A DNA stretch of 64,000 nt from Changchengzhania lutea (GTDB lineage Bacteria > Bacteroidota > Bacteroidia > Flavobacteriales > Flavobacteriaceae), in assembly GCF_006974145.1 (NCBI RefSeq), contig NZ_CP039456.1:1022001-1086000 (forward strand). Direction: 5' to 3'. The notes under the pieces are model-generated. The model worked only from the letters and a program-made list of their open reading frames with translations. It searched no databases and was not told the origin of the DNA. This document shows positions 7,470-64,000 of this stretch, piece after piece. The stretch's first letter is position 1, and every line of letters begins with the position of its first letter. The position numbers and the translations under genes were made by a program.

Positions 7470-7538
7470 TTTCTGGTGGTTTATTAAAAAGAATAGAACA
7501 AATGTAGACGTGATATCTAAGTGTATTCTAAACTGTTT

Positions 7539-7559
7539 CTTAAGATTGACTTAAGATTG
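7539..7559 (-). promoter_or_regulatory. Response-regulator direct repeat upstream of the efflux operon
   Basis: Two perfect copies of CTTAAGATTG with an 11-bp period, 70 bp upstream of the RND gene start. An 11-bp period is typical of OmpR/CusR-class binding sites. The same box recurs at 7741 and 9836, next to the adjacent CusRS-like pair, so that regulator is the likely ligand. Confidence 0.6.
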
Positions 7560-7581
7560 TTTTTCCTCTTAATAACAAAAA

Positions 7582-7613
7582 GCAAAAGCCTTGAGAGTTC
7601 CCAAAGCTTTTGC
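7582..7613 (-). terminator. Rho-independent-type hairpin
   Basis: An 8-bp stem GCAAAAGC/GCTTTTGC with a 16-nt loop. On the minus strand it is followed by TTTTTG. It lies downstream of the sensor kinase gene and upstream of the efflux operon, so it probably ends the regulator transcript. Confidence 0.55.
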
Positions 7614-7740
7614 AACCACTAACCAATAAAAACCAACCAAAAAAACCAAAAATTTAAAGAGAGAATCTATTTTTTTTCAATAATGTGGCTAATTCTTTTG
7701 TAAATGTAATTCTGTAGTTTAAAGAGTATCTAAGGAAAGT

Positions 7741-7760
7741 CTTAAGATTGGCTTAAAAAT
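7741..7760 (-). promoter_or_regulatory. Second response-regulator-type box
   Basis: CTTAAGATTG followed with an 11-bp period by CTTAAAAAT. It overlaps the end of the kinase gene, about 270 bp upstream of the efflux operon start. It may be an auxiliary upstream site or a chance partial match. Confidence 0.4.
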
Positions 7761-36241: not shown

Positions 36242-37438
36242 ATGAGACCCAAAACTAAATATACTAAAAGCGGTGATTTTAATATTGCGTATCAAGTGGT
36301 AGGTCAAGGATCAATTGACATTTTATATATTCCTGGTTGGGTTTCAAACATTGATATGATGTGGTCCGAACCAAGGCTTGCTACCTTTTTAACTAGGCTT
36401 TCCTTATTCTCTAGACTGATTATTTTCGATAAAAGAGGCACAGGACTTTCAGATCGTTCAGATGAGTATTCCACTATGGATGAGCGAATGGACGATATCA
36501 ATGCAGTATTGGATGCTACAAATTCAGAAAAAGCATTTTTATTTAGTCATTCAGAAGGAGGATCGGTTAGTCTTTTGTTTTCTTTAAAGTATCCTCAAAT
36601 AACTTTAGGAGTAATTGGTTTCGGAATATTTGCAAAACGGAGGTATTCAAAAGATTACCCTTGGGCTCCTAAAGTTGAAGAACGTGAAGTTTCTAATAAA
36701 TTAATTGAAGACAATTGGGCACATGGAAATCTTGATGGGCTTAGGTCTTTAGTTCCATCATTAGCGCATGATAATGGATTTATGGATTGGTTGGCTAGTT
36801 ATTTACGCTCTGGCGCAAGCCCTAAAGCTGCATTAATTTTACATAAGCAGTGTGCACAAATCGATATAACTGATATTTTGGGCTCAATCAAAGTTCCAAC
36901 GCTTCTTCTGTTTAGAAAAGATGACATAGAAATTCTTGTTGAAGAAGGTAGATATCTAGGAGAACGCATTCCTAATTCTAAACTTGTTGAATATCGCGGC
37001 AAAGATCATCTTTTCTGGACAGGTGACACTTATCCGATTTTAGCAGAAATAGAAGAATTTGTTACCGGAATTCGTCCAAACAAATCAGAATTTCAAAGTG
37101 CAAAGCAAAAAAGTAGCAAAACAGGAATAGATCTAGCAACTGTAATGTCTGAAAATTTCTTATATAATTTGAAAGTTGAAGAATTCGCCAAATTATGTGG
37201 CCGAAGTTTATCCGCGTTTAAAAGAGATTTTAAAAACACATTTAATACGACACCATCTAAATGGATAAAGTCTAAACGACTTGAGTATGCGAGAGCACTT
37301 CTTATAGAAAGTAATTTAAACATAAACCAAATCTGTTATGATTGCGGTTATATAAACGCATCACATTTTATAAAATCTTTTAAAGAAAAATATAACATTC
37401 CTCCTCAAAAATACAGATCTGATAACATTAGAACATAA
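36242..37438 (+). CDS. Alpha/beta-hydrolase domain fused to AraC-type DNA-binding domain, copy 1
   Basis: A 398-residue fusion. Residues 1-270 form an alpha/beta hydrolase of the kind joined to adenylate cyclases or LuxR domains in other bacteria (SGDFNIAYQVVGQG, IPGWVSNIDMMW, FDKRGTGLSDRS), with nucleophile Ser104 in FSHSEGGS and His256 in GKDHLFW. Residues about 300-395 form an AraC/XylS double helix-turn-helix (EFAKLCGRSLSAFKRDF, and INQICYDCGYINASHFIKSF). The hydrolase part probably acts as a ligand sensor that controls the two genes downstream. The identical copy is at 44888. Confidence 0.85.
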   Translation: MRPKTKYTKSGDFNIAYQVVGQGSIDILYIPGWVSNIDMMWSEPRLATFLTRLSLFSRLIIFDKRGTGLSDRSDEYSTMDERMDDINAVLDATNSEKAFLFSHSEGGSVSLLFSLKYPQITLGVIGFGIFAKRRYSKDYPWAPKVEEREVSNKLIEDNWAHGNLDGLRSLVPSLAHDNGFMDWLASYLRSGASPKAALILHKQCAQIDITDILGSIKVPTLLLFRKDDIEILVEEGRYLGERIPNSKLVEYRGKDHLFWTGDTYPILAEIEEFVTGIRPNKSEFQSAKQKSSKTGIDLATVMSENFLYNLKVEEFAKLCGRSLSAFKRDFKNTFNTTPSKWIKSKRLEYARALLIESNLNINQICYDCGYINASHFIKSFKEKYNIPPQKYRSDNIRT

Positions 37439-37541
37439 TTTGTTGTTTGGACGTTTTAGAATGTTTTTTGAACTTTTTTGAAAGCTCTATGTACTTGTTT
37501 TTAGTGAACTTTACAGTATTCATTTAAACAAATACTACATT

Positions 37542-38021
37542 ATGAAAACTAGATTAGCACTTATATTAATTTTGATTTTAGGATTAGCACTTACTAGCTG
37601 TAAAGCACAAGTTGACCTAATCAATGACGAATTTCCTGAAGCGAAGCAAGAAGTTATGGAAACTTTTGGAGCAATTGCACAAAGCATTAAAGATGGCGAT
37701 TTAGATAAACTAATTTCATTTCATGCCTACAGTCCAAAGTTTACAGAATTTAAAAACGGAGCACCACGAAATGGTGGTGAAGCTAACGAAGTTCACGAAC
37801 GCAATGTTTTTGGTTCGGTAACCGAAGTTGTGAAATTTGATGCTAAAGATTTACAAATAGCTGTATATGGTGATGTTGCCAACCTAACTTTTCACTCAGA
37901 TTTTCATTTAAAATTTGGTGAAGATTTAATAATCGTAAATGATCAAATTACTTTATTGTTTGTAAAAACTAAAGATGGTTGGAAAATGGTACATGAACAC
38001 CATTCGCCTCTTCAGAAATAA
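37542..38021 (+). CDS. SnoaL/NTF2-like lipoprotein, copy 1
   Basis: A 159-residue protein with a lipoprotein signal ending LALTSC and an NTF2-like cone fold (IAQSIKDGDLDKLISFHAYS start, WKMVHEHHSPLQK end, the family's usual last strand). SnoaL-like proteins bind or isomerise small hydrophobic molecules. It lies 103 bases after the hydrolase-AraC gene and before a hydrolase gene, which suggests a small-molecule response operon. An identical copy is at 46188. Confidence 0.8.
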   Translation: MKTRLALILILILGLALTSCKAQVDLINDEFPEAKQEVMETFGAIAQSIKDGDLDKLISFHAYSPKFTEFKNGAPRNGGEANEVHERNVFGSVTEVVKFDAKDLQIAVYGDVANLTFHSDFHLKFGEDLIIVNDQITLLFVKTKDGWKMVHEHHSPLQK

Positions 38022-38136
38022 AAAAACAAGTATTCAATTTTTTTAGACCTCCATATAAAAGCTAGAGTTGCTTTAAGTAGACTCTAGCATTTATAGCATA
38101 AGTTTAAAAATTTACAAAATATAAATATTGAAAGTA

Positions 38137-44887: not shown

Positions 44888-46084
44888 ATGAGACCCAAAA
44901 CTAAATATACTAAAAGCGGTGATTTTAATATTGCGTATCAAGTGGTAGGTCAAGGATCAATTGACATTTTATATATTCCTGGTTGGGTTTCAAACATTGA
45001 TATGATGTGGTCCGAACCAAGGCTTGCTACCTTTTTAACTAGGCTTTCCTTATTCTCTAGACTGATTATTTTCGATAAAAGAGGCACAGGACTTTCAGAT
45101 CGTTCAGATGAGTATTCCACTATGGATGAGCGAATGGACGATATCAATGCAGTATTGGATGCTACAAATTCAGAAAAAGCATTTTTATTTAGTCATTCAG
45201 AAGGAGGATCGGTTAGTCTTTTGTTTTCTTTAAAGTATCCTCAAATAACTTTAGGAGTAATTGGTTTCGGAATATTTGCAAAACGGAGGTATTCAAAAGA
45301 TTACCCTTGGGCTCCTAAAGTTGAAGAACGTGAAGTTTCTAATAAATTAATTGAAGACAATTGGGCACATGGAAATCTTGATGGGCTTAGGTCTTTAGTT
45401 CCATCATTAGCGCATGATAATGGATTTATGGATTGGTTGGCTAGTTATTTACGCTCTGGCGCAAGCCCTAAAGCTGCATTAATTTTACATAAGCAGTGTG
45501 CACAAATCGATATAACTGATATTTTGGGCTCAATCAAAGTTCCAACGCTTCTTCTGTTTAGAAAAGATGACATAGAAATTCTTGTTGAAGAAGGTAGATA
45601 TCTAGGAGAACGCATTCCTAATTCTAAACTTGTTGAATATCGCGGCAAAGATCATCTTTTCTGGACAGGTGACACTTATCCGATTTTAGCAGAAATAGAA
45701 GAATTTGTTACCGGAATTCGTCCAAACAAATCAGAATTTCAAAGTGCAAAGCAAAAAAGTAGCAAAACAGGAATAGATCTAGCAACTGTAATGTCTGAAA
45801 ATTTCTTATATAATTTGAAAGTTGAAGAATTCGCCAAATTATGTGGCCGAAGTTTATCCGCGTTTAAAAGAGATTTTAAAAACACATTTAATACGACACC
45901 ATCTAAATGGATAAAGTCTAAACGACTTGAGTATGCGAGAGCACTTCTTATAGAAAGTAATTTAAACATAAACCAAATCTGTTATGATTGCGGTTATATA
46001 AACGCATCACATTTTATAAAATCTTTTAAAGAAAAATATAACATTCCTCCTCAAAAATACAGATCTGATAACATTAGAACATAA
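44888..46084 (+). CDS. Alpha/beta-hydrolase domain fused to AraC-type DNA-binding domain, copy 2
   Basis: The protein is identical to that at 36242: hydrolase domain (residues 1-270, Ser104 in FSHSEGGS, His256) followed by an AraC-type DNA-binding domain. Here the two downstream genes are both intact, so this copy belongs to a complete operon. The lack of divergence in coding and non-coding DNA shows that the duplication is very recent or kept identical by gene conversion. Confidence 0.85.
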   Translation: MRPKTKYTKSGDFNIAYQVVGQGSIDILYIPGWVSNIDMMWSEPRLATFLTRLSLFSRLIIFDKRGTGLSDRSDEYSTMDERMDDINAVLDATNSEKAFLFSHSEGGSVSLLFSLKYPQITLGVIGFGIFAKRRYSKDYPWAPKVEEREVSNKLIEDNWAHGNLDGLRSLVPSLAHDNGFMDWLASYLRSGASPKAALILHKQCAQIDITDILGSIKVPTLLLFRKDDIEILVEEGRYLGERIPNSKLVEYRGKDHLFWTGDTYPILAEIEEFVTGIRPNKSEFQSAKQKSSKTGIDLATVMSENFLYNLKVEEFAKLCGRSLSAFKRDFKNTFNTTPSKWIKSKRLEYARALLIESNLNINQICYDCGYINASHFIKSFKEKYNIPPQKYRSDNIRT

Positions 46085-46187
46085 TTTGTTGTTTGGACGT
46101 TTTAGAATGTTTTTTGAACTTTTTTGAAAGCTCTATGTACTTGTTTTTAGTGAACTTTACAGTATTCATTTAAACAAATACTACATT

Positions 46188-46667
46188 ATGAAAACTAGAT
46201 TAGCACTTATATTAATTTTGATTTTAGGATTAGCACTTACTAGCTGTAAAGCACAAGTTGACCTAATCAATGACGAATTTCCTGAAGCGAAGCAAGAAGT
46301 TATGGAAACTTTTGGAGCAATTGCACAAAGCATTAAAGATGGCGATTTAGATAAACTAATTTCATTTCATGCCTACAGTCCAAAGTTTACAGAATTTAAA
46401 AACGGAGCACCACGAAATGGTGGTGAAGCTAACGAAGTTCACGAACGCAATGTTTTTGGTTCGGTAACCGAAGTTGTGAAATTTGATGCTAAAGATTTAC
46501 AAATAGCTGTATATGGTGATGTTGCCAACCTAACTTTTCACTCAGATTTTCATTTAAAATTTGGTGAAGATTTAATAATCGTAAATGATCAAATTACTTT
46601 ATTGTTTGTAAAAACTAAAGATGGTTGGAAAATGGTACATGAACACCATTCGCCTCTTCAGAAATAA
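46188..46667 (+). CDS. SnoaL/NTF2-like lipoprotein, copy 2
   Basis: Identical to the 159-residue protein at 37542: lipobox LALTSC, NTF2-like core and C-terminal WKMVHEHHSPLQK. It lies between the regulator fusion and the hydrolase gene. A hairpin follows the stop (CTAGAGTT...GACTCTAG, near 46708-46734) and may attenuate read-through into the hydrolase gene. Confidence 0.8.
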   Translation: MKTRLALILILILGLALTSCKAQVDLINDEFPEAKQEVMETFGAIAQSIKDGDLDKLISFHAYSPKFTEFKNGAPRNGGEANEVHERNVFGSVTEVVKFDAKDLQIAVYGDVANLTFHSDFHLKFGEDLIIVNDQITLLFVKTKDGWKMVHEHHSPLQK

Positions 46668-46782
46668 AAAAACAAGTATTCAATTTTTTTAGACCTCCAT
46701 ATAAAAGCTAGAGTTGCTTTAAGTAGACTCTAGCATTTATAGCATAAGTTTAAAAATTTACAAAATATAAATATTGAAAGTA

Positions 46783-47806: not shown

Positions 47807-48085
47807 AACGTGTCACAGTCGAGTAGGTAAAGGGGGATTTCATCCCTAAACCTCTCACAGAACCGTACGTGAACCTCTCGATTCATACGGCTCTTGTTAT
47901 ACAGTCGATAAAACCTAAATTGTATTTAAACCAGTTTGTATCCCGGCCCCCAATGATTGAACAGATTTGGATATAGTTTATGGCGGTTGAAGTGCTAAAT
48001 ATGAGTATTTTAGCATTAAATAAACATCGGTGTAAGTTGAAACTTTTGTGTTTCAAAACCGCCACAAAACCATATACTCAACGTT
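47807..48085 (+). repeat. Palindromic spacer E9, interrupted by a group II intron tail
   Basis: The left end AATAACGTGTCACA follows the hydrolase stop. The rest (47966-48085) has GATATAGTTTATGGCGGTTG pairing with CAAAACCGCCACAAAACCAT then ATACTCAACGTTG. Between them sits intron sequence. The E9 arms differ in sequence from E4 and E10 but keep the size and the ACGTTG end. Confidence 0.5.
47818..47893 (-). ncRNA. Group II intron 3' fragment (domains V and VI)
   Basis: On the minus strand, 47893-47860 is a 34-nt domain V: GAGCCGTA pairs with TACGGTTC, TGAATC with GGTTCA, a GAGA tetraloop caps it, and a two-base CG bulge is in the right place. A short stem (about 47830-47850, GGGAT/ATCCC) and the 3' end CTACTCGAC (47826-47818) follow as domain VI. 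No reverse-transcriptase gene or upstream domains are recognisable, so only the tail remains and it cannot move on its own. Confidence 0.8.
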
Positions 48086-52182: not shown

Positions 52183-55100
52183 ATGAAAATTAATTCTATT
52201 ACAAGAGGTAGGTGGATACTATTGTGTATGGCCTACCTCATTATTTCCCCATTTTGTACATATGCCTTAGACTATAGTTGTGTTTTGCATACGCCTATTT
52301 CAGACCATCTAAATGTCCAACAGTCCAAAATTAGCGGGATCATAACAGACAACCTTGGCAACCCTTTAGTAGGTATTCATGTTATGGTACAAGCCCAAAA
52401 GCAAGGTGTCGTAACAAATTTTGATGGTACGTATACCGTTACAGCCAATCCAAAGGATACCTTGGTAGTTTCGGGGCTTGGGTTTAAAACACAGACCATT
52501 GCTATTAATAATCGGCAGGTTATCAATATTCAGTTACAGGAGGACATCACACAGTTGGATACGGTGACACTTAATGCAGGGTATTATACCGTAAAGGACA
52601 AAGAGCGTACAGGTAATATTTCCAGAATTTCCTCAAAGGATATTGAAAAACAGCCTGTAAGCAATCCTTTGGCAGCGCTTCAAGGGCGTGTTTCTGGTGT
52701 TGAAATCACGCAAACCTCAGGCGTTCCAGGTGCTGGCTTCAATATTAAAATTAGAGGACAAAATAGCATCCGTGCTAATGGAAACGATCCTTTATATGTT
52801 ATTGATGGTGTCCCCTATGCCTCCGAAACTTTAGGAGATAGACAAACATCGGGTTCTATTATCCCCCTATCTGGTGTAAGCCCTTTAAATAATATCAACC
52901 CAACAGATATTGAGAGTATAGAAATCTTAAAAGATGCTGATGCCACAGCTATTTATGGTTCTAGAGGTGCCAATGGGGTCGTGCTTATTACGACCAAAAA
53001 AGGCAAAGTAGGAACTTCTTCTTTTAAATTGAATGTGTCCACTGGTTTTGGAAATGTGGCTCGCAGATTAGATGTACTCAGTACACAAGACTATATAAAC
53101 ATGAGGGAGGAAGCTTATGCTAATGATGGGATAGCTACGTTACCCTTTAATGCGTATGACATTAACGGCACTTGGGACACAAACCGAAATACCGATTGGC
53201 AAAAAGAACTCTTTGGAAAGACCGCTTATTTAACCAATGTACAAGGAACGTTTTCTGGAGGGAGTGAACAGACACAGTTTTTACTAAGTGGTAATTATAA
53301 TAAACAAACCACGGTATTACCAGGAGATTCTGATAATGATAAAATAACGGTGCATAGTAACTTAAACCATCAGTCTAAAGACAAGAAATTGGCAATTCAA
53401 TTTTCTGCCTACTACACGTCGAATATAAATAATTTACCAGCATCCGATTTGGTAAGAGAGGCCTTGACTTTGGCACCAAATGCGCCTGATCTATATAATG
53501 ATGATGGATCACTAAACTGGGAAAACTCGACATGGAATAATCCGCTTCGTAATTTGGAAGGTAAATACTTAGCCCAAAGCACTACTTTAATAAGTAATGC
53601 AACTATCAATTATACTCTTAATAAAGGTTTAAAGTTAGTCACCAGTTTAGGCTATACAGAGAGCGATCTGCAAGAACTAAGAACCGTACCGTCTACCACG
53701 CTGAACCCCGCTTATGGTCTAGGTAGCGACATCTCATCGGCTATTCATAATAATGCCGATAGAACCTCATGGATTATAGAGCCTCAATTACATGGGACGT
53801 TTCATTTGGGGAAAACCAAAATAGAATCCTTGGTTGGATTCACTTTTCAAGAACAAAAGAGCCATCGACTATCGCAATTTGCCTTTGGGTTTACCAATAA
53901 TAACTTTATTGAAAACATTGCGGCGGCATCTAGCCTATTTGTTCTTGGTGACACCCAAACACAATATAGATACCACGCGCTTTTTAGTAGGATTAATTTA
54001 AATCACCAAGGGAAATATATTCTTAATCTAACAGGAAGACGTGATGGTTCCAGCAGATTTGGGGATGACAAGAAGTTTGCCGATTTTGGAGCTGTGGGTG
54101 CTGCTTGGATTTTTTCAAATGAATCTTTTATAGAATCTGCTTTGCCATTTTTAAGCTTTGGTAAAATACGGGCGAGTTATGGTACTTCAGGCAATGACCA
54201 GATAGGAGACTATCAGTATTTAGACACCTATAATTTTGGCAGCTCACCCTATCAAAATATTATAGGTTTACAACCTACAAGACTATACAACCCTAATTTT
54301 AGTTGGGAATCCAATAAAAAACTGGAGTTTTCTATGGAACTTGGGTTTTTACAAGACCGTATTTTTATAAGCAGTAGTTATTACCGTAACAAATCATCCA
54401 ACCAATTGGTTGGTATTCCATTGCCAGGGACAACAGGTTTTAATTTTTTAAATGCCAATCTTAATGCAACGGTAGAAAATAAAGGCTGGGAATTTGAATT
54501 GAATACAACCAATATAGCTAGTAAAAATATACGTTGGACGACTTCAATTAACTTGACCCTACCTAAGAATAAACTTTTAGAATTTCCAGATTTGGAAGGG
54601 TCTACTTATGCCAATCAATTGGTGATAGGACAACCTCTAAATATTATAAAGGTGTATCAATATACAGGGGTAAATCCGCAAACGGGACTTTATGAATTTA
54701 CGGATTTTAATGAAGATAGTACTATTTCTGCACCTGATGACAAGCAGGTTATTAAAGACCTTAATCCCAAGTATTTTGGAGGTATAAACAATCATTTTTC
54801 CTATAAGAAATTTAGTCTGGATGTGCTGTTTCAGTTTACCAAACAATTAGGTGTGCACTTTTTGGGTATTCCCGGGACTATGGGGAGTCAAACTAATGAC
54901 GTATTGCAGCGGTGGCAAAATGTGGGCGACCAAACGTCTGTGCAACGTTATACCAGCGGATTAAACTTTGAAGGTTTAGTAGCTTATTCTAATTATACTC
55001 AAAGTGATGCTGTTATTGGCGACTCCTCTTATCTGCGCTTAAAAACGTTGGCTTTATCTTATCAGATTTCAAAAAAGACGAGCAAGGGTATTGGTTGTGA

Positions 55101-55227
55101 CCTCTTTTTAAGAGCTCATAATCTGCTGACCATTACGAGCTATAATGGACTTGATCCAGAGACCAGATCCAGTTCAACCATTCCTCCATTACGATTTATC
55201 TCCTTAGGAACGCAACTTACATTTTAA
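52183..55227 (+). CDS. SusC/RagA-family TonB-linked outer-membrane receptor
   Basis: A 1,014-residue transporter: a signal peptide, a CarboxypepD_reg-like domain (KISGIITDNLGNPLVGIHVM), a plug with the SusC signature (PLYVIDGVPY and DADATAIYGSRGANGVVLIT) and a 22-strand barrel ending RFISLGTQLTF. It imports a large ligand, a glycan or peptide, across the outer membrane using TonB energy, with SusD as lid. The SusD gene follows after 11 bases. The neighbouring metalloprotease suggests peptide rather than glycan import; that is inference. Confidence 0.95.
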   Translation: MKINSITRGRWILLCMAYLIISPFCTYALDYSCVLHTPISDHLNVQQSKISGIITDNLGNPLVGIHVMVQAQKQGVVTNFDGTYTVTANPKDTLVVSGLGFKTQTIAINNRQVINIQLQEDITQLDTVTLNAGYYTVKDKERTGNISRISSKDIEKQPVSNPLAALQGRVSGVEITQTSGVPGAGFNIKIRGQNSIRANGNDPLYVIDGVPYASETLGDRQTSGSIIPLSGVSPLNNINPTDIESIEILKDADATAIYGSRGANGVVLITTKKGKVGTSSFKLNVSTGFGNVARRLDVLSTQDYINMREEAYANDGIATLPFNAYDINGTWDTNRNTDWQKELFGKTAYLTNVQGTFSGGSEQTQFLLSGNYNKQTTVLPGDSDNDKITVHSNLNHQSKDKKLAIQFSAYYTSNINNLPASDLVREALTLAPNAPDLYNDDGSLNWENSTWNNPLRNLEGKYLAQSTTLISNATINYTLNKGLKLVTSLGYTESDLQELRTVPSTTLNPAYGLGSDISSAIHNNADRTSWIIEPQLHGTFHLGKTKIESLVGFTFQEQKSHRLSQFAFGFTNNNFIENIAAASSLFVLGDTQTQYRYHALFSRINLNHQGKYILNLTGRRDGSSRFGDDKKFADFGAVGAAWIFSNESFIESALPFLSFGKIRASYGTSGNDQIGDYQYLDTYNFGSSPYQNIIGLQPTRLYNPNFSWESNKKLEFSMELGFLQDRIFISSSYYRNKSSNQLVGIPLPGTTGFNFLNANLNATVENKGWEFELNTTNIASKNIRWTTSINLTLPKNKLLEFPDLEGSTYANQLVIGQPLNIIKVYQYTGVNPQTGLYEFTDFNEDSTISAPDDKQVIKDLNPKYFGGINNHFSYKKFSLDVLFQFTKQLGVHFLGIPGTMGSQTNDVLQRWQNVGDQTSVQRYTSGLNFEGLVAYSNYTQSDAVIGDSSYLRLKTLALSYQISKKTSKGIGCDLFLRAHNLLTITSYNGLDPETRSSSTIPPLRFISLGTQLTF

Positions 55228-55238
55228 AAAAGAACATT

Positions 55239-56636
55239 ATGACACATATAATTAAACATACAAACCCGTCTAGAAGTTTAGCCTTCATGCTTTTACTTCT
55301 TGTGCTTTTGACCTCTTGTGAAGATTTTGTTGACATAGATCCTCCAAACAATCAGCTTACTAGTGCCATTGTATTTGAAGACGCAGCAACTGTTAATGCA
55401 GCCTTAACTCATGTTTACGGTCAACTTAGAGATCAGGGACTCACCAATGGAGGTGTCTCAGGATTGGGCTATCTATTGGGGCATTACACGGATGAACTAA
55501 CACTTTATAGTACCTCACAGTCTGGGATTCAGTTATTTTTCGATAATAATGTATTGGCAACAGACAATACAGTTTTAAGCCAATGGAATAGCAGTTATAA
55601 TCTTATATATGCAACCAACAACATCATAGAAGGTGTTAAAAGTTCAACAGGTTTAGCAGAGGAAGATAAAGACCAATTTCTTGGTGAGGCGTACTTTATA
55701 AGAACCTTAATTCATTTTTATTTAGTGAATCTCTTTGGAGATATCCCTTATATAGATACGACTGACTATCGCACTAATAGTACTACTTCAAGACTGGAAG
55801 CAGATCAAGTGTATCAAAAAATGATTGATGATCTGGTGTTATCGAAATCATTGTTATCTGCAAATTATGGAGATGCAAACAGAGTACGTCCCAATAAATG
55901 GGTAGCAACTGCGCTTTTAGCTAGGGTATATCTTTATAACGAGAATTGGGATGGGGCTTTAAGCGAAGCTACCGAGATACTTTCTAGTGGCGTTTACGCT
56001 TTGAATACTGATATTAATCAGGTGTTTTTAAAAAATAGTACAGAGACCCTTTTGCAATTTGATGCTGGGATTTCGGGGGCTAATACCATAGACGCCTTGA
56101 CATATATTTTTACAAGTGGCCCACCTCCAAACAGTAGTTTAGCAGATTATTTTATTGATAGTTTTGAAGTTGGGGATGCGCGCTTTAGCGATTGGATGGG
56201 TACCGTTTCTAATGGTACAGATACTTGGTATTATCCTTTTAAATATAAGCTGAATACCAATACTAGGACTACTCAAGAGTGTTCCATCCTATTTCGATTG
56301 GCAGAATTATATCTTATTTCGGCGGAAGCCAACGCCCAATTAGGCAATGTGTCTAACGCTTTAGATCAGTTAAATGTTATACGAGAAAGATCGAGTTTGG
56401 CACCTGTGTTGGTAACCGATACAGCTGCACTTTTAGAGACCATTTATCAGGAACGTAAAATGGAGTTCTTTACTGAAATGGGGCATCGCTTTTTTGACTT
56501 GAAACGAACTAGTGCAGCAACTAGTGAGCTATCTCCAGTAAAACCTAATTGGCAAGCTACGGATGTACTATTGCCTATTCCAGAATCAGAACTCCTTTTG
56601 AATCCTAATCTGAAACCGCAAAACGATGGGTATTAA
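55239..56636 (+). CDS. RagB/SusD-family lipoprotein
   Basis: A 465-residue surface lipoprotein (lipobox LLTSC) with the RagB/SusD layout: TPR-like helices (YNLIYATNNIIEGVKSS, FLGEAYFIRTLIHFYLVNLF) and the C-terminal signature RLAELYLISAEANAQLGN, then ERKMEFFTEMGHRFFDLKR. It captures the substrate for the SusC barrel. It lies directly between the SusC and metalloprotease genes. Confidence 0.95.
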   Translation: MTHIIKHTNPSRSLAFMLLLLVLLTSCEDFVDIDPPNNQLTSAIVFEDAATVNAALTHVYGQLRDQGLTNGGVSGLGYLLGHYTDELTLYSTSQSGIQLFFDNNVLATDNTVLSQWNSSYNLIYATNNIIEGVKSSTGLAEEDKDQFLGEAYFIRTLIHFYLVNLFGDIPYIDTTDYRTNSTTSRLEADQVYQKMIDDLVLSKSLLSANYGDANRVRPNKWVATALLARVYLYNENWDGALSEATEILSSGVYALNTDINQVFLKNSTETLLQFDAGISGANTIDALTYIFTSGPPPNSSLADYFIDSFEVGDARFSDWMGTVSNGTDTWYYPFKYKLNTNTRTTQECSILFRLAELYLISAEANAQLGNVSNALDQLNVIRERSSLAPVLVTDTAALLETIYQERKMEFFTEMGHRFFDLKRTSAATSELSPVKPNWQATDVLLPIPESELLLNPNLKPQNDGY

Positions 56637-58986
56637 AATGATACGTCTAAATCGATTAGAGACTATTAAAGGTATTGGCTTTGCCTCCATTGGCAAACTT
56701 TTGTTTCCAATGATTATTTTGTTAGTCACCTGCTCCTTATGGGGGCAGGTTAACAACAAGCTGGATCTCAATGATTTCTTAGCATCTGGAGATTTTATAA
56801 AAGTTCATTGGCAAGACAGTAAGGTTTTCTTTGAAATTGATGAAAAATTATTGGGTAAAGACCTGCTGTTTGTGAGGCATGATAAGGGCTATAAGCATGT
56901 GATTTGGACTAAATACAAGGATCAGATACTTTTAGAAACCCCAAGAATTAAATCGTTGTCAGGGGTTATTATTCCCATAGATAATCATCCATCTATAGAA
57001 AAAAGTATCCTTGGTATATTTCCAATTATAAAAGAAAAAAGTGATCTCAAGACCCTTTATATTGATGTGACTGATTTATTTCTAAAGAACAGTGTGGCGT
57101 GGTATTCCAATTTTAAGGAAACCATTATACCTGATTTATCAGCAATAGAAGAAATAAAGTATTTGAAAAATGAAATTGTGATTTCAACCAAGAGAGTCTT
57201 ATCAAAAAACACAAGCAAATCAACAAATCAGGTTGATTTTAGTTTTTTTCTATTGCCAGAGTCCATGAAACCTAGATTATTTGACCATCGCATAGGCTAT
57301 TTTATAGAGGATGAATTGAGCCCAATTAATCATTTTCCTAAACATGCTAAAGCGAGTATATCAAGATGGCACTTGGAAAAAAAGGATGCAAACAAGAAAA
57401 TCAGTGTCCCTGTTAAGCCCATTACGTTTTACTTAGATACTAATATCCCCAATAAGTGGAAACCCTATATAAAAGCGGGGATTCTTGAATGGCTGCCAGC
57501 TTTCGAAGCAGCAGGTTTTAAAAATGCCATTGAAGTTAAAGAGATTCCAAATAATATTAAGAATTGGCAAAGTAACAGCGTCAATAATTCTGTTGTGAGA
57601 TGGTTGAACAAAGAAGGGATAAGAGGTCAGAATAATAAAGCAGGTTCTGGAGTGTCTAGAATAGTTGATTTAAGATCGGGTGAAATTATAAAATCAGATA
57701 TTATTATTGGCTCCTCATACCAATATTTTTCAGACAGCTATTTTATTAGATGTAGCCCCTTGGATAAGCGTGCACAGCAATATCCATTTTCAGATGATTT
57801 AATGGGAGCACTTATTCAATCGGTTGTGGCACATGAAGCAGGTCATGCTTTTGGAATCAAGGATGCTAATTATGGGGAATATGCCTATCCATTTGACAAA
57901 ATGCGAGATAAAAAATGGCTCCAAGATATGGGGCACACCCCAAGTGTTATGTCTTATGCCAGGCATAATTATATGGTGCAGCCAGAAGACCATATACCAC
58001 CCTCTTTATTAATTCGGAAAGTTGGACCTACTGATGTTTATACTATTAAATGGGGATACGAATCCTTTCCAAATATTAATGAGCCACAAGACGAACTACC
58101 ATATTTAGAAAAAATGATTCGTCGGCAGGATTCCATTCCTTGGTATCGCTATAATATAGGCAACTATGAAAAGACGGGTCCAGATTGTAGTAATGAAGTC
58201 GCTGATAATAATAATCCCATAAAGAGTGCAGAACTAGGACTATTAAATATGAAAAGAGTGATTGAACTCTTATCAACGGTTACAAAGACTCAAAAGGATA
58301 ATGAACTGTTAGAGCGATTATATAATAAAACAATAACGCTTTGGTTTGATCAAATGAGTCATGTCATGACTTCAATTGGTGGCTATACGACGCATTATAA
58401 ATCGGGAGCACAAACGGGTGCGGTGTATACACCAATTCCTATGCAACTTCAACAAGAGGCTGTAGATTTCCTAAATTTAAATGCCTTTAAGATTCCTGAT
58501 TGGTTAGCGCATCCAATGTTTTATTCTAGGATTATGTACTCGACTTCGACTGATAAAATAATGGCATATCAATTACAATTACTATCGGAAATATTGAGTC
58601 CATTAAGAATGAAAAGGTTAGAAAATATGGTGTTTTCTTCTAAAGCCGATGGTGTTATCAAAGCATTACTATCAAAATTGCGTATTGGTCTTTGGAGTGA
58701 ATTATCTCAAAATAAAATAAGCATTATACGCCGAAGACAGGAACTACAAAGTGCTTATATCGCTTTGTTAAGTGAGGCAATTACAAAACCAAAAAAATAT
58801 GGAATCACAAACCCAAGTGATATGTACTTTGTGTACAGCGATTATTCAAGAAGTATTTTTATGTCTGAACTCATGTTATTAAAAAAGGATATTATAAGTA
58901 CAGGAACTAGCGTTACAGATAGCATCACTTTTGGTCATTTAAAACGTTGTTTGTTAAATATAGATGACATCTTAATCGGGAAGTAG
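56626..58986 (+). CDS. Zinc-dependent metalloprotease (DUF5117/DUF5118 type)
   Basis: A 786-residue exported protein. Zinc site HEAGHAFGIKD (about 403-413) is the extended HExxHxxGxxD of metzincins, followed by a VMSYARHNYM segment that could hold the Met-turn. N- and C-terminal regions match the DUF5118-DUF5117 architecture common in Bacteroidota. The start overlaps the SusD gene by 11 bases; an ATG at 56638 is an alternative. Its place as the third gene of a SusCD operon implies proteolysis of the imported or surface-bound substrate. Confidence 0.88.
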   Translation: MGIKMIRLNRLETIKGIGFASIGKLLFPMIILLVTCSLWGQVNNKLDLNDFLASGDFIKVHWQDSKVFFEIDEKLLGKDLLFVRHDKGYKHVIWTKYKDQILLETPRIKSLSGVIIPIDNHPSIEKSILGIFPIIKEKSDLKTLYIDVTDLFLKNSVAWYSNFKETIIPDLSAIEEIKYLKNEIVISTKRVLSKNTSKSTNQVDFSFFLLPESMKPRLFDHRIGYFIEDELSPINHFPKHAKASISRWHLEKKDANKKISVPVKPITFYLDTNIPNKWKPYIKAGILEWLPAFEAAGFKNAIEVKEIPNNIKNWQSNSVNNSVVRWLNKEGIRGQNNKAGSGVSRIVDLRSGEIIKSDIIIGSSYQYFSDSYFIRCSPLDKRAQQYPFSDDLMGALIQSVVAHEAGHAFGIKDANYGEYAYPFDKMRDKKWLQDMGHTPSVMSYARHNYMVQPEDHIPPSLLIRKVGPTDVYTIKWGYESFPNINEPQDELPYLEKMIRRQDSIPWYRYNIGNYEKTGPDCSNEVADNNNPIKSAELGLLNMKRVIELLSTVTKTQKDNELLERLYNKTITLWFDQMSHVMTSIGGYTTHYKSGAQTGAVYTPIPMQLQQEAVDFLNLNAFKIPDWLAHPMFYSRIMYSTSTDKIMAYQLQLLSEILSPLRMKRLENMVFSSKADGVIKALLSKLRIGLWSELSQNKISIIRRRQELQSAYIALLSEAITKPKKYGITNPSDMYFVYSDYSRSIFMSELMLLKKDIISTGTSVTDSITFGHLKRCLLNIDDILIGK

Positions 58987-59046: not shown

Positions 59047-59080
59047 AGAAAAGGGGCATACAGCCCCTTTTCTTTTTTTA
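59047..59080 (+). terminator. Strong terminator between convergent operons
   Basis: AGAAAAGGGGC/GCCCCTTTTCT, an 11-bp stem with a 5-nt loop and a T run. It ends the SusCD-protease transcript. Confidence 0.9.
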
Positions 59081-59092
59081 TACCTAAATCCC

Positions 59093-59356
59093 TTAAGGTC
59101 TAAAAACTACCAGAGGACAAGTTGTTTGACTTGGAAACATTTTCCCAAAGGCTTGTTGTCCTTGCGCATTGGTACAAAGAATCTCTCCATCAGGAGAACA
59201 ATCAACTTTTTGTGTACAAGGTGCTGGAGAATCAATATAGCCATCTACTATGGCTAAATTTGCTACATTCGAACTAGTCGAAGTAGCAAAGGCGCTGGTT
59301 AAAGCAAAAATGATTGCTACAACCGGAATTAATAATTTAAACTTGAAAGTTTTCAT
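59093..59356 (-). CDS. Secreted four-cysteine peptide (DUF6520-like)
   Basis: An 87-residue preprotein: a signal peptide (KLLIPVVAIIFALTSAFAT), then about 62 residues containing four cysteines (47, 53, 61, 80) and a C-terminal CPLVVFRP. It has the layout of DUF6520 proteins, small exported peptides found in multiple copies in Flavobacteriaceae and Sphingobacteriaceae beside MauE/DoxX-like genes. Their function is not known. It is probably oxidised to two disulfides after export. It converges on the SusCD-protease operon and follows two membrane-protein genes. Confidence 0.75.
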   Translation of the reverse strand: MKTFKFKLLIPVVAIIFALTSAFATSTSSNVANLAIVDGYIDSPAPCTQKVDCSPDGEILCTNAQGQQAFGKMFPSQTTCPLVVFRP

Positions 59357-59420
59357 AATTATTATTTTTAAATGAATGTTATGATCTACTCTTTTATACA
59401 GGTTTTCGATCTCAGTCCTG

Positions 59421-59434
59421 TTACCGGCCGGTAA
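59421..59434. promoter_or_regulatory. Perfect palindrome upstream of the peptide gene
   Basis: TTACCGGCCGGTAA, a 14-bp perfect palindrome and unusually G+C-rich for this DNA, 65 bp upstream of the peptide start. It may be an operator. Confidence 0.4.
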
Positions 59435-59493
59435 ATCTTTTATCTTATGGTGGCATTTAAGCTATTAGCCATCTGTGTGTTATTCAAAGGTTA

Positions 59494-60543
59494 CTAAAAA
59501 TGTGAGGGCTTTAATTGGTATACAGAAAGCACAACATCTATTAGAGCAACCAAATGATTGTTATAAACATTAAATTCTCTAACTTTTCTTTGACCAATAT
59601 TATAGAGGTAAAAGCTAAATTGATAGCTTTGCTTTTTCCAGTTGTAAACATCAATTATTGCGGCTTGGTTTAGCATAGATTTTTCTTCATATTTACCTAG
59701 TCTATTAGAGTGAATCATCATCAGGTTTTGATATAAAGCAGCCGTTTTATTTACTTCTAATGGAGGCACTTTCATTTTAATTTCTCCCAGTTCATTTTTT
59801 TGGGATAATTGAATTTGGGCAACCCGAACAGTGTCTATAGTTTCTTCCCTGCGGAGTAACTTCAGATCAGGATTCATAATCATAAATTGGTTGCGGTAGA
59901 AGTAAACATAACCCAGGTTTTCTTTGTCTTCTGAAACGATCATAGTACCATCGACATCAAACATGCCATCTATTTGTCTTTCTAATAAGTCAGGATCTAA
60001 TATTATATTAAAATCATCCTGTTTCTCTAGAACCCCAAGTGTGGCTTCATTTGTTTTACTACTGATAGCCTTTATATATAATTTGTTAGAATCTATAGGG
60101 ATGGCACGCGTAAAATAGGTTTTGTTTTTCATCCAAAGGCTGGCATGCCAGTCTCCAATGTTTCCGCGGAAAATACAGGGTACAAATCCATCGGTTACAA
60201 AGAAGTATGGTGGGTGAAACTTTACTGTTATGGATCGAAAAGGTAAATCCATTCTATCCAATGTAATCCGGATATGTTGGGTGTCTTTAGTTTTTAAGTT
60301 TACCTCTAAAAGATGTAATGGGGCCGTGGTATTTCCTAAATACAATATCTCATTTTCGTATCCAGCGATATAATAGGAATTGTATTTAAGAGAAAGGTCA
60401 TACTTTTTAGTAATGGGATGGTGGGGATACCTTCTAACAAAAGCGTTATTACGATGCATTTGGTTTTCGGAAAGTAAAAACATGATTATAACGAGAGAGC
60501 AACTCAATAATCCAAATATTGATAACCTTAAAAGAGTTTTCAT
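59494..60543 (-). CDS. Unknown membrane-anchored protein, possible propeller
   Basis: A 349-residue protein with one N-terminal membrane helix (LSIFGLLSCSLVIIMFLL) and a periplasmic domain of repeated four-strand units (YYIAGYENEILYLGN, YFFVTDGFVPCIFRG, GYVYFYRNQFMIMN), suggesting a beta-propeller. No catalytic motif. It begins one base after the MauE-like gene, so the two are co-translated. In related clusters such a protein accompanies MauE and DUF6520 peptides. The role is unknown. Confidence 0.65.
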   Translation of the reverse strand: MKTLLRLSIFGLLSCSLVIIMFLLSENQMHRNNAFVRRYPHHPITKKYDLSLKYNSYYIAGYENEILYLGNTTAPLHLLEVNLKTKDTQHIRITLDRMDLPFRSITVKFHPPYFFVTDGFVPCIFRGNIGDWHASLWMKNKTYFTRAIPIDSNKLYIKAISSKTNEATLGVLEKQDDFNIILDPDLLERQIDGMFDVDGTMIVSEDKENLGYVYFYRNQFMIMNPDLKLLRREETIDTVRVAQIQLSQKNELGEIKMKVPPLEVNKTAALYQNLMMIHSNRLGKYEEKSMLNQAAIIDVYNWKKQSYQFSFYLYNIGQRKVREFNVYNNHLVALIDVVLSVYQLKPSHF

Positions 60544-60544
60544 G

Positions 60545-60994
60545 TTATTTTGCTTTTAAGGTTAAAGGGTTTCTTTCTAAATAAAAGATGGCAATAACTG
60601 CCATTATAATAAATATCAGATTGAATATAATATGCTCTGTCCATCCCAAATGTTCCAATACACCGCCACAGGAACAAGGGATATAGTCGCTAAAATTCAG
60701 GATAAGTATGATGTAAGCAGTAAATAGTATCATTAATGAGAAACTGGCATAAAACGCCAATAGCATACACTTTGGAATTAAGAATAGACCTGAAATTACC
60801 AGTTCTATTATTGGTATTCCCCAAGCCACCCAACTGGCATACCTCGTAACAATTGGGGATTGACCCAATTGTATTTGAAACTGATTGAAATCAAGAAGCT
60901 TGCTTGTGGCAGCATAAACAAATAATACAATGAATAAAATACGTATACTATTTGTTATTGTTACTAATTGATATCGTGTATTCGAACCTGTCAT
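60545..60994 (-). CDS. MauE/DoxX-like membrane protein
   Basis: A 149-residue protein with four membrane helices and a conserved cysteine pair in PCSCGGVLEHLGW (Cys107, Cys109). This matches MauE-like proteins, membrane partners in periplasmic thiol chemistry such as disulfide handling in methylamine dehydrogenase maturation. Here the obvious client is the four-cysteine peptide two genes downstream, which is inference from gene order. It is probably the first gene of the three-gene operon. Confidence 0.8.
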   Translation of the reverse strand: MTGSNTRYQLVTITNSIRILFIVLFVYAATSKLLDFNQFQIQLGQSPIVTRYASWVAWGIPIIELVISGLFLIPKCMLLAFYASFSLMILFTAYIILILNFSDYIPCSCGGVLEHLGWTEHIIFNLIFIIMAVIAIFYLERNPLTLKAK

Positions 60995-61052
60995 ACCTTT
61001 TGATTTGATATGCCAAAGTTCCGAAATAAAATTTAACCCTAAGGGATAATTA

Positions 61053-61067
61053 GTTGACTGTGAGGGA
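61053..61067 (+). promoter_or_regulatory. Shared motif GTTGACTGTGAGGGA
   Basis: It lies 59 bp upstream of the MauE-like gene. A 13-of-15 match (GTTGACTCTAAGGGA) occurs at 62652-62666 upstream of the oxoamine synthase gene. It could be a binding site for the PAS-AraC regulator encoded between them. Confidence 0.3.
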
Positions 61068-61068
61068 T

Positions 61069-62079
61069 TTATTTATTAAAATGTGGTTTGTGTACTTGTT
61101 TTTTATCAGGATTCAATGTTTTTTTACGTAAGTCTCTAGGCGTATATCCATAACGTTTTTTAAATGTTCTGGTGAAATGAGGGTTGCTTTTAAACCCTGT
61201 CATTTCTGCAATTGACTTGAAAGTTTGGCGGGTATACTGAATCATCATTTTCGCCTTTCTTAAACGTTCTTCCTTTAAGAACCGATAGACCGTAGTGCCA
61301 TACAACTCCTTAAACCCATACTTCAGTTTAAACTCATTGGTGCCCAATTGCAGTGCGAATTTTTTAAGCGAGGGGAAGTCCTTTTCAAGATTATTGATAA
61401 TGATGCTATGGGCTTCACGTATTCTACGAATGTCCTCAAAGCTCAGTCGAAGCTTTTGTTTCTGATTTTCTGATCGCGTATTATTTGAACTTTGTTGGTC
61501 GTTGGAGTGTTGGATGACCCGTTGCTTCAAATCATTTTCCAGATGATCCTGTCTATTGGAATGGTGAATCACCGTAATAAGGGCCTTTTTAAAATCATTT
61601 TGTTTACCATTAAGACTCGTCATATAGCAAGTCTTTGGAATGACCAAACTTCCCTTGGATTTGAAGGTTAGCTCCAGGGACCTGTCCTGAAATTTACTTT
61701 GCTTTAGGCTACGCCATGCCTCCTTCCACGATATTCGTGACTTTTCTATTAAAAAATCTGAAAAAGGGTGTCCTATAATATCCATCTGTAAAACAGATAG
61801 CATATTGCAAGCTTGTTGGTTGGCAATGTCAATGAACCCATCCTTATCCACAACGAAGCTCATTTGAACAATGGCCGCAATGGGGCTATTGGTGTTGGCA
61901 TAGCCCTGATGGAGTAGGGTTTCCTGAATTTCTTCAGCCAGCATATTCAGTGATAGACCTATCGCTTCGAGATTATCATTTTTACCAGAGCGCTCCAAAC
62001 GGTAAAAGAAATTCCCTGAGGCCATTTCCAATAACATTTGGTTGATTCGTTTCATTCTTCGCTTTTTACCGGTACTCAC
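61069..62079 (-). CDS. PAS-domain AraC-family transcriptional regulator
   Basis: A 336-residue regulator. A HAMP-like or helical N-terminus (INQMLLEMASGNFFYRLER) leads into a PAS domain (about 70-160; FVVDKDGFIDIANQQACNML). The C-terminus is an AraC double helix-turn-helix (LKKFALQLGTNEFKLKYGFK and IAEMTGFKSNPHFTRTFKKR). The HAMP-like start without a membrane helix is unusual. The gene lies upstream of the MauE-peptide operon on the same strand and next to a STAS-like gene. It probably responds to a small ligand or redox cue and controls adjacent genes. Confidence 0.85.
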   Translation of the reverse strand: MSTGKKRRMKRINQMLLEMASGNFFYRLERSGKNDNLEAIGLSLNMLAEEIQETLLHQGYANTNSPIAAIVQMSFVVDKDGFIDIANQQACNMLSVLQMDIIGHPFSDFLIEKSRISWKEAWRSLKQSKFQDRSLELTFKSKGSLVIPKTCYMTSLNGKQNDFKKALITVIHHSNRQDHLENDLKQRVIQHSNDQQSSNNTRSENQKQKLRLSFEDIRRIREAHSIIINNLEKDFPSLKKFALQLGTNEFKLKYGFKELYGTTVYRFLKEERLRKAKMMIQYTRQTFKSIAEMTGFKSNPHFTRTFKKRYGYTPRDLRKKTLNPDKKQVHKPHFNK

Positions 62080-62155: not shown

Positions 62156-62539
62156 TTATTGTTCCATAAATCCAGAAAGAAACGCTATGGCATGTTCCAT
62201 AGAATCAAATGTCTTTGTCGGGATTGGTGGATTGCTGGTTCGGATATAAAATTCGGACAGCATTTCAGAAACCGGTGGATCTACAATAACCGCCACAGCC
62301 GTTATCAAGGTTGAACCTTCCATGGCCAAATAGGCCCTGGCAGATTTATTGATTTCCTTTACACCTCTAATGTCGCATAGTACAGGGAATTCACGACCCT
62401 CATGTAAAGTCAGTCTATCCTCGACAATCTGTACGGCAGCTTCTAAATCCACAGTAACACCTTGGTGGTAGATAATATGTAATACACCATCTAGGAACCT
62501 ATACGAGGTATAATCATTTTCAAAATAATTTCGCATCAT
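62156..62539 (-). CDS. STAS/SpoIIAA-like protein
   Basis: A 127-residue protein with the alternating strand-helix pattern of SpoIIAA/STAS-like domains (VLHIIYHQGVTVDLEAAVQI, then FPVLCDIRGVKEINKSARAY). Many flavobacterial genomes hold such stand-alone proteins near PAS regulators; the function is unknown. It lies 76 bases upstream of the PAS-AraC gene on the same strand and may modulate it. The start could be the second Met. Confidence 0.7.
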   Translation of the reverse strand: MMRNYFENDYTSYRFLDGVLHIIYHQGVTVDLEAAVQIVEDRLTLHEGREFPVLCDIRGVKEINKSARAYLAMEGSTLITAVAVIVDPPVSEMLSEFYIRTSNPPIPTKTFDSMEHAIAFLSGFMEQ

Positions 62540-62651: not shown

Positions 62652-62666
62652 GTTGACTCTAAGGGA
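62652..62666 (+). promoter_or_regulatory. Shared motif GTTGACTCTAAGGGA
   Basis: It lies 71 bp upstream of the oxoamine-synthase start and matches the motif at 61053-61067 at 13 of 15 positions. Confidence 0.3.
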
Positions 62667-62736: not shown

Positions 62737-64000
62737 ATGGCAAAAATCAAACACAACAATTTTTTGAGTACCGTTCACGAAGTATTTACAGATGCCAAAC
62801 AAGAGGGCATTATGCATCTCTATGCCGAAGGCGAAGCATTTACTGGGCGTACTATTGGCGTAAAGGACAGACAATTATTTCACTTTGGAACCACGGGATA
62901 TTTAGGCCTGGAGCAGGATGCGCGATTGAAGGCCGCTGCGATAGATGCTATTACCAAATACGGAACGCAATTTCCATTATCCAAGTCTTACATTTCCAAT
63001 CCCCTCTACAGGCAGTTGGAAGAACGCTTAACGGCGATGTACCAGAACCCAATCATTATAACCAAGAACAGCACTTTGGGGCACATGGGTGCTATACCTA
63101 ATGCGGTGAATGACCAAGATGCCATTATCCTAGACCATCAAGTCCACTGGAGTGTGCAAAGTGCCGCCAAAGTTTTAAAGAACAGATCGGTTCCCATTGA
63201 TATGATCCGCCATAACGATTTGAACATGCTGGAGGACAAAATAAAATCGCTTTCCGATAAACATAAAAAGATCTGGTATATGGCCGATGGCATCTATTCC
63301 ATGTACGGTGATTTTGCACCGATTCAGGATTTAAAGACCTTGAGCTTAAAGTATCCCCAATTACATCTATATATAGATGACGTGCACGGGATGAGTTGGG
63401 TGGGCAAGAACGGAACGGGTTATGCCTTGAGCGAGCTCAAAGAACTTTCAGAAAATGTTCTGCTCTTTGGCACCCTGAGTAAGACCTTTGGAGCAAGTGG
63501 TGCGGTATTGGTATGTTCCAATAAAAAGATGTACCAAGAAATAAAGACCTTTGGCGGGCCCTTGACCTTTTCAGCGCAATTGGAACCAGCGTCTGTGGCA
63601 GCAGCCACGGCCTCGGCAGACATACACCTATCCCCTGAAATCTATGAACTTCAAAATGACCTAAGGGAACGGATTCAGTATTTCAATGCACTATTAGAGC
63701 AAACCGACTTGCCTCTAATTGATAAAAATCTGTCACCTGTGTTCTTTATAGGTACGGGCATGCCGAAAACGGGCTATAATTTTGTCGGTCGACTTATGAA
63801 AGAAGGGTTCTATGTGAACCTTGGTATTTTTCCAGCTGTGCCCGTAAAGAATACAGGGGTGCGCATTACCATATCCAGACATAACCAAAGGGAGGAAATC
63901 AAAGCCTTGGTAGAGGCGATGGTATATCATTATCCAAAAGCGCTTGAAGACACGCACACGAATGCACAACGGGTCCTGCACGCCTTTAAAATGGATGCTA
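62737..64000 (+). CDS. Alpha-oxoamine-synthase-family PLP enzyme (SPT-like), partial
   Basis: The gene starts at ATG 62737 and is still open at the window end, giving at least 421 residues. It is a fold-type I PLP enzyme of the alpha-oxoamine synthase family: FHFGTTGYLGL near the start, the cofactor Asp in YIDDVHGMSWVG and the PLP Lys in LFGTLSKTFGASGAVLV. Members condense an acyl-CoA or acyl-ACP with an amino acid. In Bacteroidota this branch includes serine palmitoyltransferase and the enzyme that makes sulfonolipid (capnine) bases. The lipid made here cannot be decided from sequence alone. Confidence 0.88.
   Translation, partial: MAKIKHNNFLSTVHEVFTDAKQEGIMHLYAEGEAFTGRTIGVKDRQLFHFGTTGYLGLEQDARLKAAAIDAITKYGTQFPLSKSYISNPLYRQLEERLTAMYQNPIIITKNSTLGHMGAIPNAVNDQDAIILDHQVHWSVQSAAKVLKNRSVPIDMIRHNDLNMLEDKIKSLSDKHKKIWYMADGIYSMYGDFAPIQDLKTLSLKYPQLHLYIDDVHGMSWVGKNGTGYALSELKELSENVLLFGTLSKTFGASGAVLVCSNKKMYQEIKTFGGPLTFSAQLEPASVAAATASADIHLSPEIYELQNDLRERIQYFNALLEQTDLPLIDKNLSPVFFIGTGMPKTGYNFVGRLMKEGFYVNLGIFPAVPVKNTGVRITISRHNQREEIKALVEAMVYHYPKALEDTHTNAQRVLHAFKMDA

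Follow-up and report, generated by a model that had tools for sequence, protein, structure and literature searches.

MauE and MauD are maturation proteins of methylamine dehydrogenase, and a role in disulfide formation has been proposed for the MauE family (PF07291). A disulfide-bearing peptide that is served by membrane maturation proteins is known from the SdpABC system of Bacillus, and operons in which the genes for SusC and SusD are accompanied by peptidase or TlpA-type genes are exemplified by the RagAB peptide importer. Some candidate RiPP clusters of Streptomyces pair mauE with cysteine-rich precursors containing at least eight cysteines, and MauE is thought to make disulfides in these clusters, according to the section of the decRiPPter report that deals with them (PMC7794033). 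Among conjugative transposons, RteC is described as governing the excision and transfer of CTnDOT (PMC1976400).

The Changchengzhania lutea locus described here lies in a stretch of 64,000 nucleotides (referred to as the window) and shares features with each of these systems (Table 1). Its MauE belongs to family PF07291 and would have the disulfide role proposed for the methylamine dehydrogenase protein, but the substrate would here be a small peptide, and no mau genes were noticed in its neighbourhood. Its SusC and SusD genes are followed by an enzyme gene, as in the operons with a peptidase or thioredoxin-like enzyme, but the ligand is apparently the product of a gene on the facing side, where an oxidase for it is encoded as well. 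The three-gene logic of a membrane maturase and an exported disulfide peptide recalls SdpABC; however, this MauE yields only MauE and weak DoxX matches and no HTTM/SdpB match, and assignment to the SDP-type bacteriocin systems, which is based on an HTTM-family SdpB, was rejected on these grounds. A recurring SdpI-like immunity gene was not noticed either. RteC, an HTH_17 excision-type gene and TraG/TraN-type tra genes nearby are shared with CTnDOT-type conjugative transposons, but a PAS-AraC regulator is found here instead of RteAB, and the CTnDOT article, in its parts on these genes, describes no peptide-SusCD module (PMC1976400). The remark on mauE in the decRiPPter report is the closest match in print among those we found: a mauE homologue stands beside a small cysteine-bearing precursor in both cases. 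However, two or four cysteines are present in 130 of 132 distinct DUF6520 peptides, as opposed to at least eight in the precursors of that class, into which the locus therefore does not fall, and SusCD, a propeller and a conjugative element are not mentioned in the corresponding section (PMC7794033). Full-text searches, from whose scope most subscription journals and preprints fell out, returned neither a paper naming DUF6520 nor a title on a system of MauE, peptide, SusCD and conjugative element. The cassette is indicative of a hitherto undescribed system of peptide exchange.

Table 1. Features of the DUF6520 locus and its surroundings (positions are those of the window).
Feature	Position	Strand	Evidence
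SusC/RagA-type TonB-linked outer-membrane protein	52183-55227	+	TIGR04056 709 vs 368 bits
SusD-like surface lipoprotein	55239-56636	+	PF14322 and PF07980 above cut-off
DUF4953/DUF5117/DUF5118 zinc metalloprotease, third gene of the SusCD operon	56626-58986	+	PF16313 270.9 vs 24.2 bits; HEAGH (HExxH)
Terminator-like stem-loop with T run, between the convergent operons	59047-59073	+	
DUF6520 pre-peptide, 87 aa	59093-59356	-	PF20130 43.2 bits vs cut-off 25.4
Probable membrane-anchored beta-propeller, 349 aa; inner membrane, probably periplasmic	59494-60543	-	homology to the propeller half of MauE-propeller fusions
MauE, four-helix membrane redox protein	60545-60994	-	PF07291 113.9 bits vs cut-off 27
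MauE C107-S-C109 (motif PCSCGG), proposed redox site	60668-60676	-	sequence; loop predicted to be extracytoplasmic
PAS-AraC regulator, backbone gene adjoining the cassette	61069-62079	-	PF13426, PF12833
DUF7793 protein, backbone	62156-62539	-	PF25056 151.9 bits
PLP enzyme, start (alpha-oxoamine-synthase-like, 803 aa in full)	62737-64000	+	PF00155

On the minus strand the order of transcription is DUF7793, PAS-AraC, MauE, the 349-aa propeller protein and DUF6520. A single base separates the genes for MauE and the 349-aa protein, which are therefore probably co-transcribed. The set is faced by the SusC-SusD-metalloprotease operon (52183-58986, plus strand). All genes lie where the original prediction from the letters alone had put them, including the facing operon, whose three products match the models for SusC, SusD and a DUF4953/5117/5118 metalloprotease. 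The prediction had also placed a PAS-AraC regulator upstream of the set; it is indeed present (62079-61069), but it tracks the mobile-element backbone and not the cassette. The 15-base word GTTGACTSTRAGGGA occurs in two copies, one before MauE (61032-61067), accompanied by a weaker half-site located 21 bases further upstream, and the other between DUF7793 and the PLP gene (62652-62666). These copies are possible AraC sites, the word having been picked by eye, so that its two perfect matches are by construction. It was not found ahead of SusC, and a comparison of the region before SusC with the promoter regions of the regulator and MauE brought out no clearly shared word. Seven proteins compared with a defence-system library gave no match. 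Elsewhere in the window, a group II intron RNA (47818-47895, minus strand; 62.9 bits) is the sole Rfam match at gathering scores, and a gene block is duplicated (approximately 36242-38128 and 44888-46774, the copies lying 8646 bases apart), with 398-aa and 159-aa proteins whose first 60 residues are identical.

The DUF6520 pre-peptide consists of a signal peptide followed by about 60 residues that contain, as predicted, cysteines at positions 47, 53, 61 and 80. C53 and C61 are invariant in an alignment of 37 rows, and an AF2 model (pLDDT 79) shows a helix at residues 4-28 with small strands after it. Between loci, the mature peptides have a median identity of 22%. An unusually fast evolution of DUF6520 was nevertheless dropped as an idea despite this low overall value, since the peptide is 69-100% identical in the 13 pairs of loci in which MauE and SusD are both at least 70% identical. 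Kinship with the NVEALA peptides (PF14055), prompted by the letters NVANLA in the sequence, was likewise abandoned; PF14055 matches in three of 296 genomes, and this genome is not one of them. At L060 and L074, two or three DUF6520 genes lie beside one MauE-propeller locus, and one of the copies has eight cysteines.

The CSC motif that had been noticed in the MauE-like protein is part of the sequence PCSCGG, and the motif CxCG is present in 136 of 142 cassette MauE proteins. Among the 80 named loci there are 19 in which MauE and the propeller are fused into one protein, and PCSCGG does not vary among 18 fused relatives. For the 349-aa protein, Pfam gave no match at E ≤ 1, and a search of PDB sequences found no relative of either MauE or the propeller at E ≤ 10. 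One such fusion was modelled with AlphaFold (18 sequences, pLDDT 80), and the model consists of four helices, the PCSCGG loop, a fifth helix and a propeller (residues 181-497). Its best match in the PDB is the DUF4221 propeller BVU_1028 (3s9j; Z 18.3, rmsd 4.0, 298 residues), a likeness of fold only at 8% identity. Because NHL propellers score nearly as high, the match supports a propeller fold without pointing to any one family; for the MauE half of the model, the fold search was hardly a test. With a membrane helix followed by a beta-propeller in the model of its fused relative, the 349-aa protein is probably a membrane-anchored beta-propeller, in line with the original prediction.

Of 299 genomes from the same family, 41 contain DUF6520; phylum-wide it was detected in 32 of 395 genomes, 25 of these above the cut-off. 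The family search gave 75 hits besides the one in the window, of which 60 were taken as loci, four lay inside those, four were added later and seven, mostly weak or at contig edges, were left aside; together with the window, the 60 loci make up the set of 61 used below. MauE is present in 298 of the 299 genomes, and we have therefore relied on adjacency instead of co-occurrence at the genome level. MauE adjoins DUF6520 in 55 of the 61 loci and the propeller does so in 32, while SusC lies within 8 kb of DUF6520 in 56 loci and SusD in 51, nearly always facing it. The original prediction was to be given up if these families did not occur together outside the window; they do. With 20 SusC proteins over the cut-off in the 4.13 Mb of this genome, one would be expected in about 8% of random 16-kb stretches, as compared with 56 of 61 DUF6520 loci, an excess well beyond chance. 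Ten loci (L223-L232) come from other families within the class; SusD faces MauE in ten of ten and SusC does so in nine, the tenth being cut by the end of a contig.

In order not to select by DUF6520, loci were also sought from the backbone aminotransferase, with a query built from DUF6520-bearing loci and with the best 80 of 287 relatives being used. MauE and DUF6520 are present in 64 of the 70 loci among these best 80 that have at least 9.5 kb of DNA upstream; SusC and SusD accompany them in 63 of the 64, and a recognized peptidase or thioredoxin-like third gene in 62. Plasmids yielded neither a match to MauE nor one that covered 80% of the aminotransferase. The MauE-propeller-DUF6520 genes and the SusCD-enzyme genes form a real and conserved unit. 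In a side branch of the aminotransferase (L176, L185, L187 and L191), an outer-membrane-like protein of about 890 aa stands in MauE's place, joined in L176 and L185 by a 206-aa protein; these two loci have nevertheless kept DUF6520 and SusC. The Peptidase C39 family is linked to bacteriocin leader processing, and proteins of this family are encoded near two of the cassettes from other families (L229:3676-5040 and L230:3690-5129).

The number of cysteines in the peptide follows the propeller. Since the genome sets overlap in species, distinct mature peptides were counted (n = 132). At least four cysteines are found in 72 of the 75 that stand beside a propeller, exactly two in all 57 without one, and three in none; the exceptions are L066, L181 and L228, which have a propeller yet only two cysteines. 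The spacing in the two-cysteine peptides (mode 7) equals that between the second and third cysteines of the four-cysteine forms. On the aminotransferase tree, 17 of 18 supported independent contrasts showed a change of cysteine count in the same direction and none in the opposite one (sign test, 1.5e-5). On the MauE tree the propeller changed at least seven times, with only three well-supported independent contrasts (p = 0.25). MauE is not nearby in six of the 61 loci, of which L040, L041, L049 and L090 have two-cysteine peptides and L079 and L083 four-cysteine peptides. The simplest reading of this pattern is that MauE may suffice for the pair C2-C3, the propeller being needed for C1-C4, and the covariation offers a sharp and cheap test of how the propeller would aid the second disulfide.

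On the opposite strand, the gene after SusD varies in kind: among 62 backbone-anchored loci it encodes a DUF4953-type metalloprotease in 32, an M16 peptidase in five, an S9 peptidase in 17 and one of two thioredoxin-like proteins in eight. All of these could cut or reduce a disulfide-bearing peptide. We built a tree from 33 cassette SusC proteins and the 19 other SusC proteins of this genome; six of 38 chosen loci were left out as they were without a SusC of 900 aa. The 25 cassette SusC proteins from the window's order, the one in the window included, form one clade with full support, and the eight from more distant families form a second supported clade. None of the 19 others falls inside either clade; the tree is compatible with a single origin for the two but does not show one.

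Distances between loci, compared gene by gene, fall into two blocks with the border between AraC and MauE. The backbone block (TraG, RteC, aminotransferase, DUF7793 and PAS-AraC) correlates at 0.58-0.78. Beyond the border, SusC and SusD correlate with each other at 0.80 and DUF6520 with these two at 0.50-0.64, as against 0.14-0.28 for DUF6520 with the backbone genes. A partial Mantel test of DUF6520 and SusD, given the aminotransferase and AraC, yielded 0.46, and none of 499 permutations was as high. Physical linkage contributes to this covariation; MauE, the nearer neighbour of DUF6520, nevertheless fits the DUF6520 distances less well than SusD does. Individual pairs of loci illustrate the exchange. 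The backbone genes of L166 and L170 are 95-98% identical, but their MauE proteins are so at only 40%, DUF6520 at 31% and SusD at 42%. In six further pairs (three to four of them independent) with MauE at 70% or more and SusD at 50% or less, DUF6520 goes with SusD (21-30%), as does the third gene, and no instance of the reverse was seen. As judged from these distances, DUF6520, SusD, SusC and the third enzyme make up a second block, which is exchanged from one backbone to another.

The set adjoins RteC and genes of the excision type in most of the related loci, and conjugation genes are often present too. Past the end of the window, the rest of the PLP enzyme is followed by RteC (280 bits), an HTH_17-type gene and two further small genes; HTH and ATPase-like genes are among those that follow (L095). 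RteC also has Pfam matches in relatives. The HTH_17 excision-type label rests on a PF12728 match in a relative and, in this genome, on BLAST. TraG (PF19044, 203.5 bits) and TraN (PF13595, 85.5 bits) lie downstream of RteC with 20-odd kb of other genes in between; many relatives have the tra block without such a gap, and tra genes are present in 44 of the 72 aminotransferase loci with enough downstream DNA among the best 80 of 287 relatives. Seen from RteC, the cassette is present at 17 of 56 rows counted in 120 genomes, five of 61 rows having been left out as partial or weak. A tyrosine integrase gene lies at 1150.8 kb beside a tRNA-Leu gene, with a truncated RteC before it (L252:3347-3865 and 6621-7951; approximately 1147.3-1152.0 kb), which we read as a second element end or a remnant. 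No convincing direct repeat was found as a marker of element ends, and the only PF03432 relaxase of this genome is 0.7 Mb away. We propose that the cassette sits on integrative conjugative elements or on remnants of them. The PLP enzyme (62737-64000; L095:738-3146) and DUF7793 are a very conserved part of the backbone, with a median identity of 64%. A relative of the PLP enzyme has a weak GNAT match just under the cut-off, and the product of the enzyme could be a small-molecule signal. In L044, L054, L056, L075, L080, L084 and L239, the PAS-AraC regulator is replaced by a TPR histidine kinase and a response regulator.

The gene set and its conservation, the covariation of cysteines and propeller, the joint swapping of peptide and SusCD and the mobile setting are read directly from the genomes compared. 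On this basis we propose that DUF6520 is exported through its Sec signal peptide, that MauE would act as a dedicated membrane oxidase forming the C53-C61 disulfide, and that the membrane-anchored propeller, where present, would help to form the second disulfide, C47-C80. DUF6520 would pair specifically with the SusC and SusD of the facing operon, which would bind it and import it at the outer membrane, and the third enzyme (metalloprotease, M16, S9 or thioredoxin-like) would then cut or reduce it. We regard this mechanism as a whole, an oxidized peptide with a cognate SusCD on a mobile cassette, as somewhat better than an even bet, with oxidation, partner binding, import direction and role being what we infer. 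Its weakest steps are the exit of the peptide from the cell and the purpose of the loop.

With regard to exit, DUF6520 could remain in the cell as a small disulfide-bonded subunit or adaptor of SusCD that is matured by MauE and the propeller. Swapping together with SusCD would be expected equally in that case, and the dedicated SusC clade would fit, but there would be no explanation for a third enzyme that is a peptidase at some loci and thioredoxin-like at others and, to our knowledge, SusCD pairs mostly function with no subunit of this kind; we think this rather unlikely. SusCD could instead be the exporter of DUF6520, which the signal peptide would bring to the periplasm. A precedent is the TonB-dependent transporter Oar of Myxococcus, reported to secrete the protein PopC (PMC6434023), and co-swapping would again follow, but a peptidase or thioredoxin-like enzyme in the operon fits uptake and breakdown better, and export by SusCD is improbable in our estimation. 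The least probable reading by far is an ordinary gene neighbourhood in which the peptide side and SusCD are functionally uncoupled: in its favour, the operons are convergent and have a terminator-like stem-loop between them, but the facing layout is conserved across a class and the two sides are swapped together between backbones.

The conserved cassette, the cysteine-propeller covariation and the co-swapping together give good comparative support to the originally predicted peptide that is made, oxidized and exported and is matched by an uptake or processing system, but they do not tell apart the roles suggested for it, namely signal, nutrient shuttle or bacteriocin-like pair. In a bacteriocin-like pair, the oxidized peptide would harm neighbours free of the cassette, and SusCD with the peptidase or thioredoxin would remove or destroy it in the producers. 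The peptide is small, variable (median identity of the mature form 22%), disulfide-bearing and predicted to be exported; the recognized third enzymes could all inactivate it, and the swapping of cassettes would suit such a role. Set against this, no membrane immunity protein recurs between the cassette genes, import of a toxin would be an odd form of immunity, and the peptide is not clearly faster-evolving than SusD among close pairs, so that we hold this possibility to be a minor but not negligible one. A carrier for a nutrient or metal, taking up its ligand outside, being re-imported by SusCD and releasing the ligand through the enzyme, would account for a closed loop of making, export, import and destruction, and the SusCD family consists of importers. 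However, cysteine pairs that are coupled to an oxidase are probably disulfides and not ligands, and the DUF6520 alignment contains little other conserved sequence for binding, which makes a carrier quite improbable. Within the favoured mechanism of an oxidized peptide and its cognate SusCD, the most likely purpose is recognition between carriers of the element, by a signal or a competition peptide. Spelled out in full, this would be a mobile-element-borne peptide self-recognition in Gram-negative bacteria: each element would export its own disulfide-stapled peptide and encode both the SusCD receptor-importer that matches it and an enzyme that destroys it, specificities would be exchanged as whole cassettes, and the outcome, passed on through PAS-AraC (or, at other loci, the TPR kinase pair) and RteC, would tell the element whether the neighbours already carry it. 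This complete scheme is tentative, and we would give it only a modest chance.

If the proposed mechanism is correct, Bacteroidota would possess a self-made peptide with a cognate SusCD identified by genetics, in a field where no ligand is known for most SusCD pairs. A dedicated peptide oxidase would be connected with conjugative elements, and both DUF6520 and this branch of MauE would gain a function. If the peptide is a signal, the control of mobile elements by peptides would extend from Gram-positive to Gram-negative bacteria.
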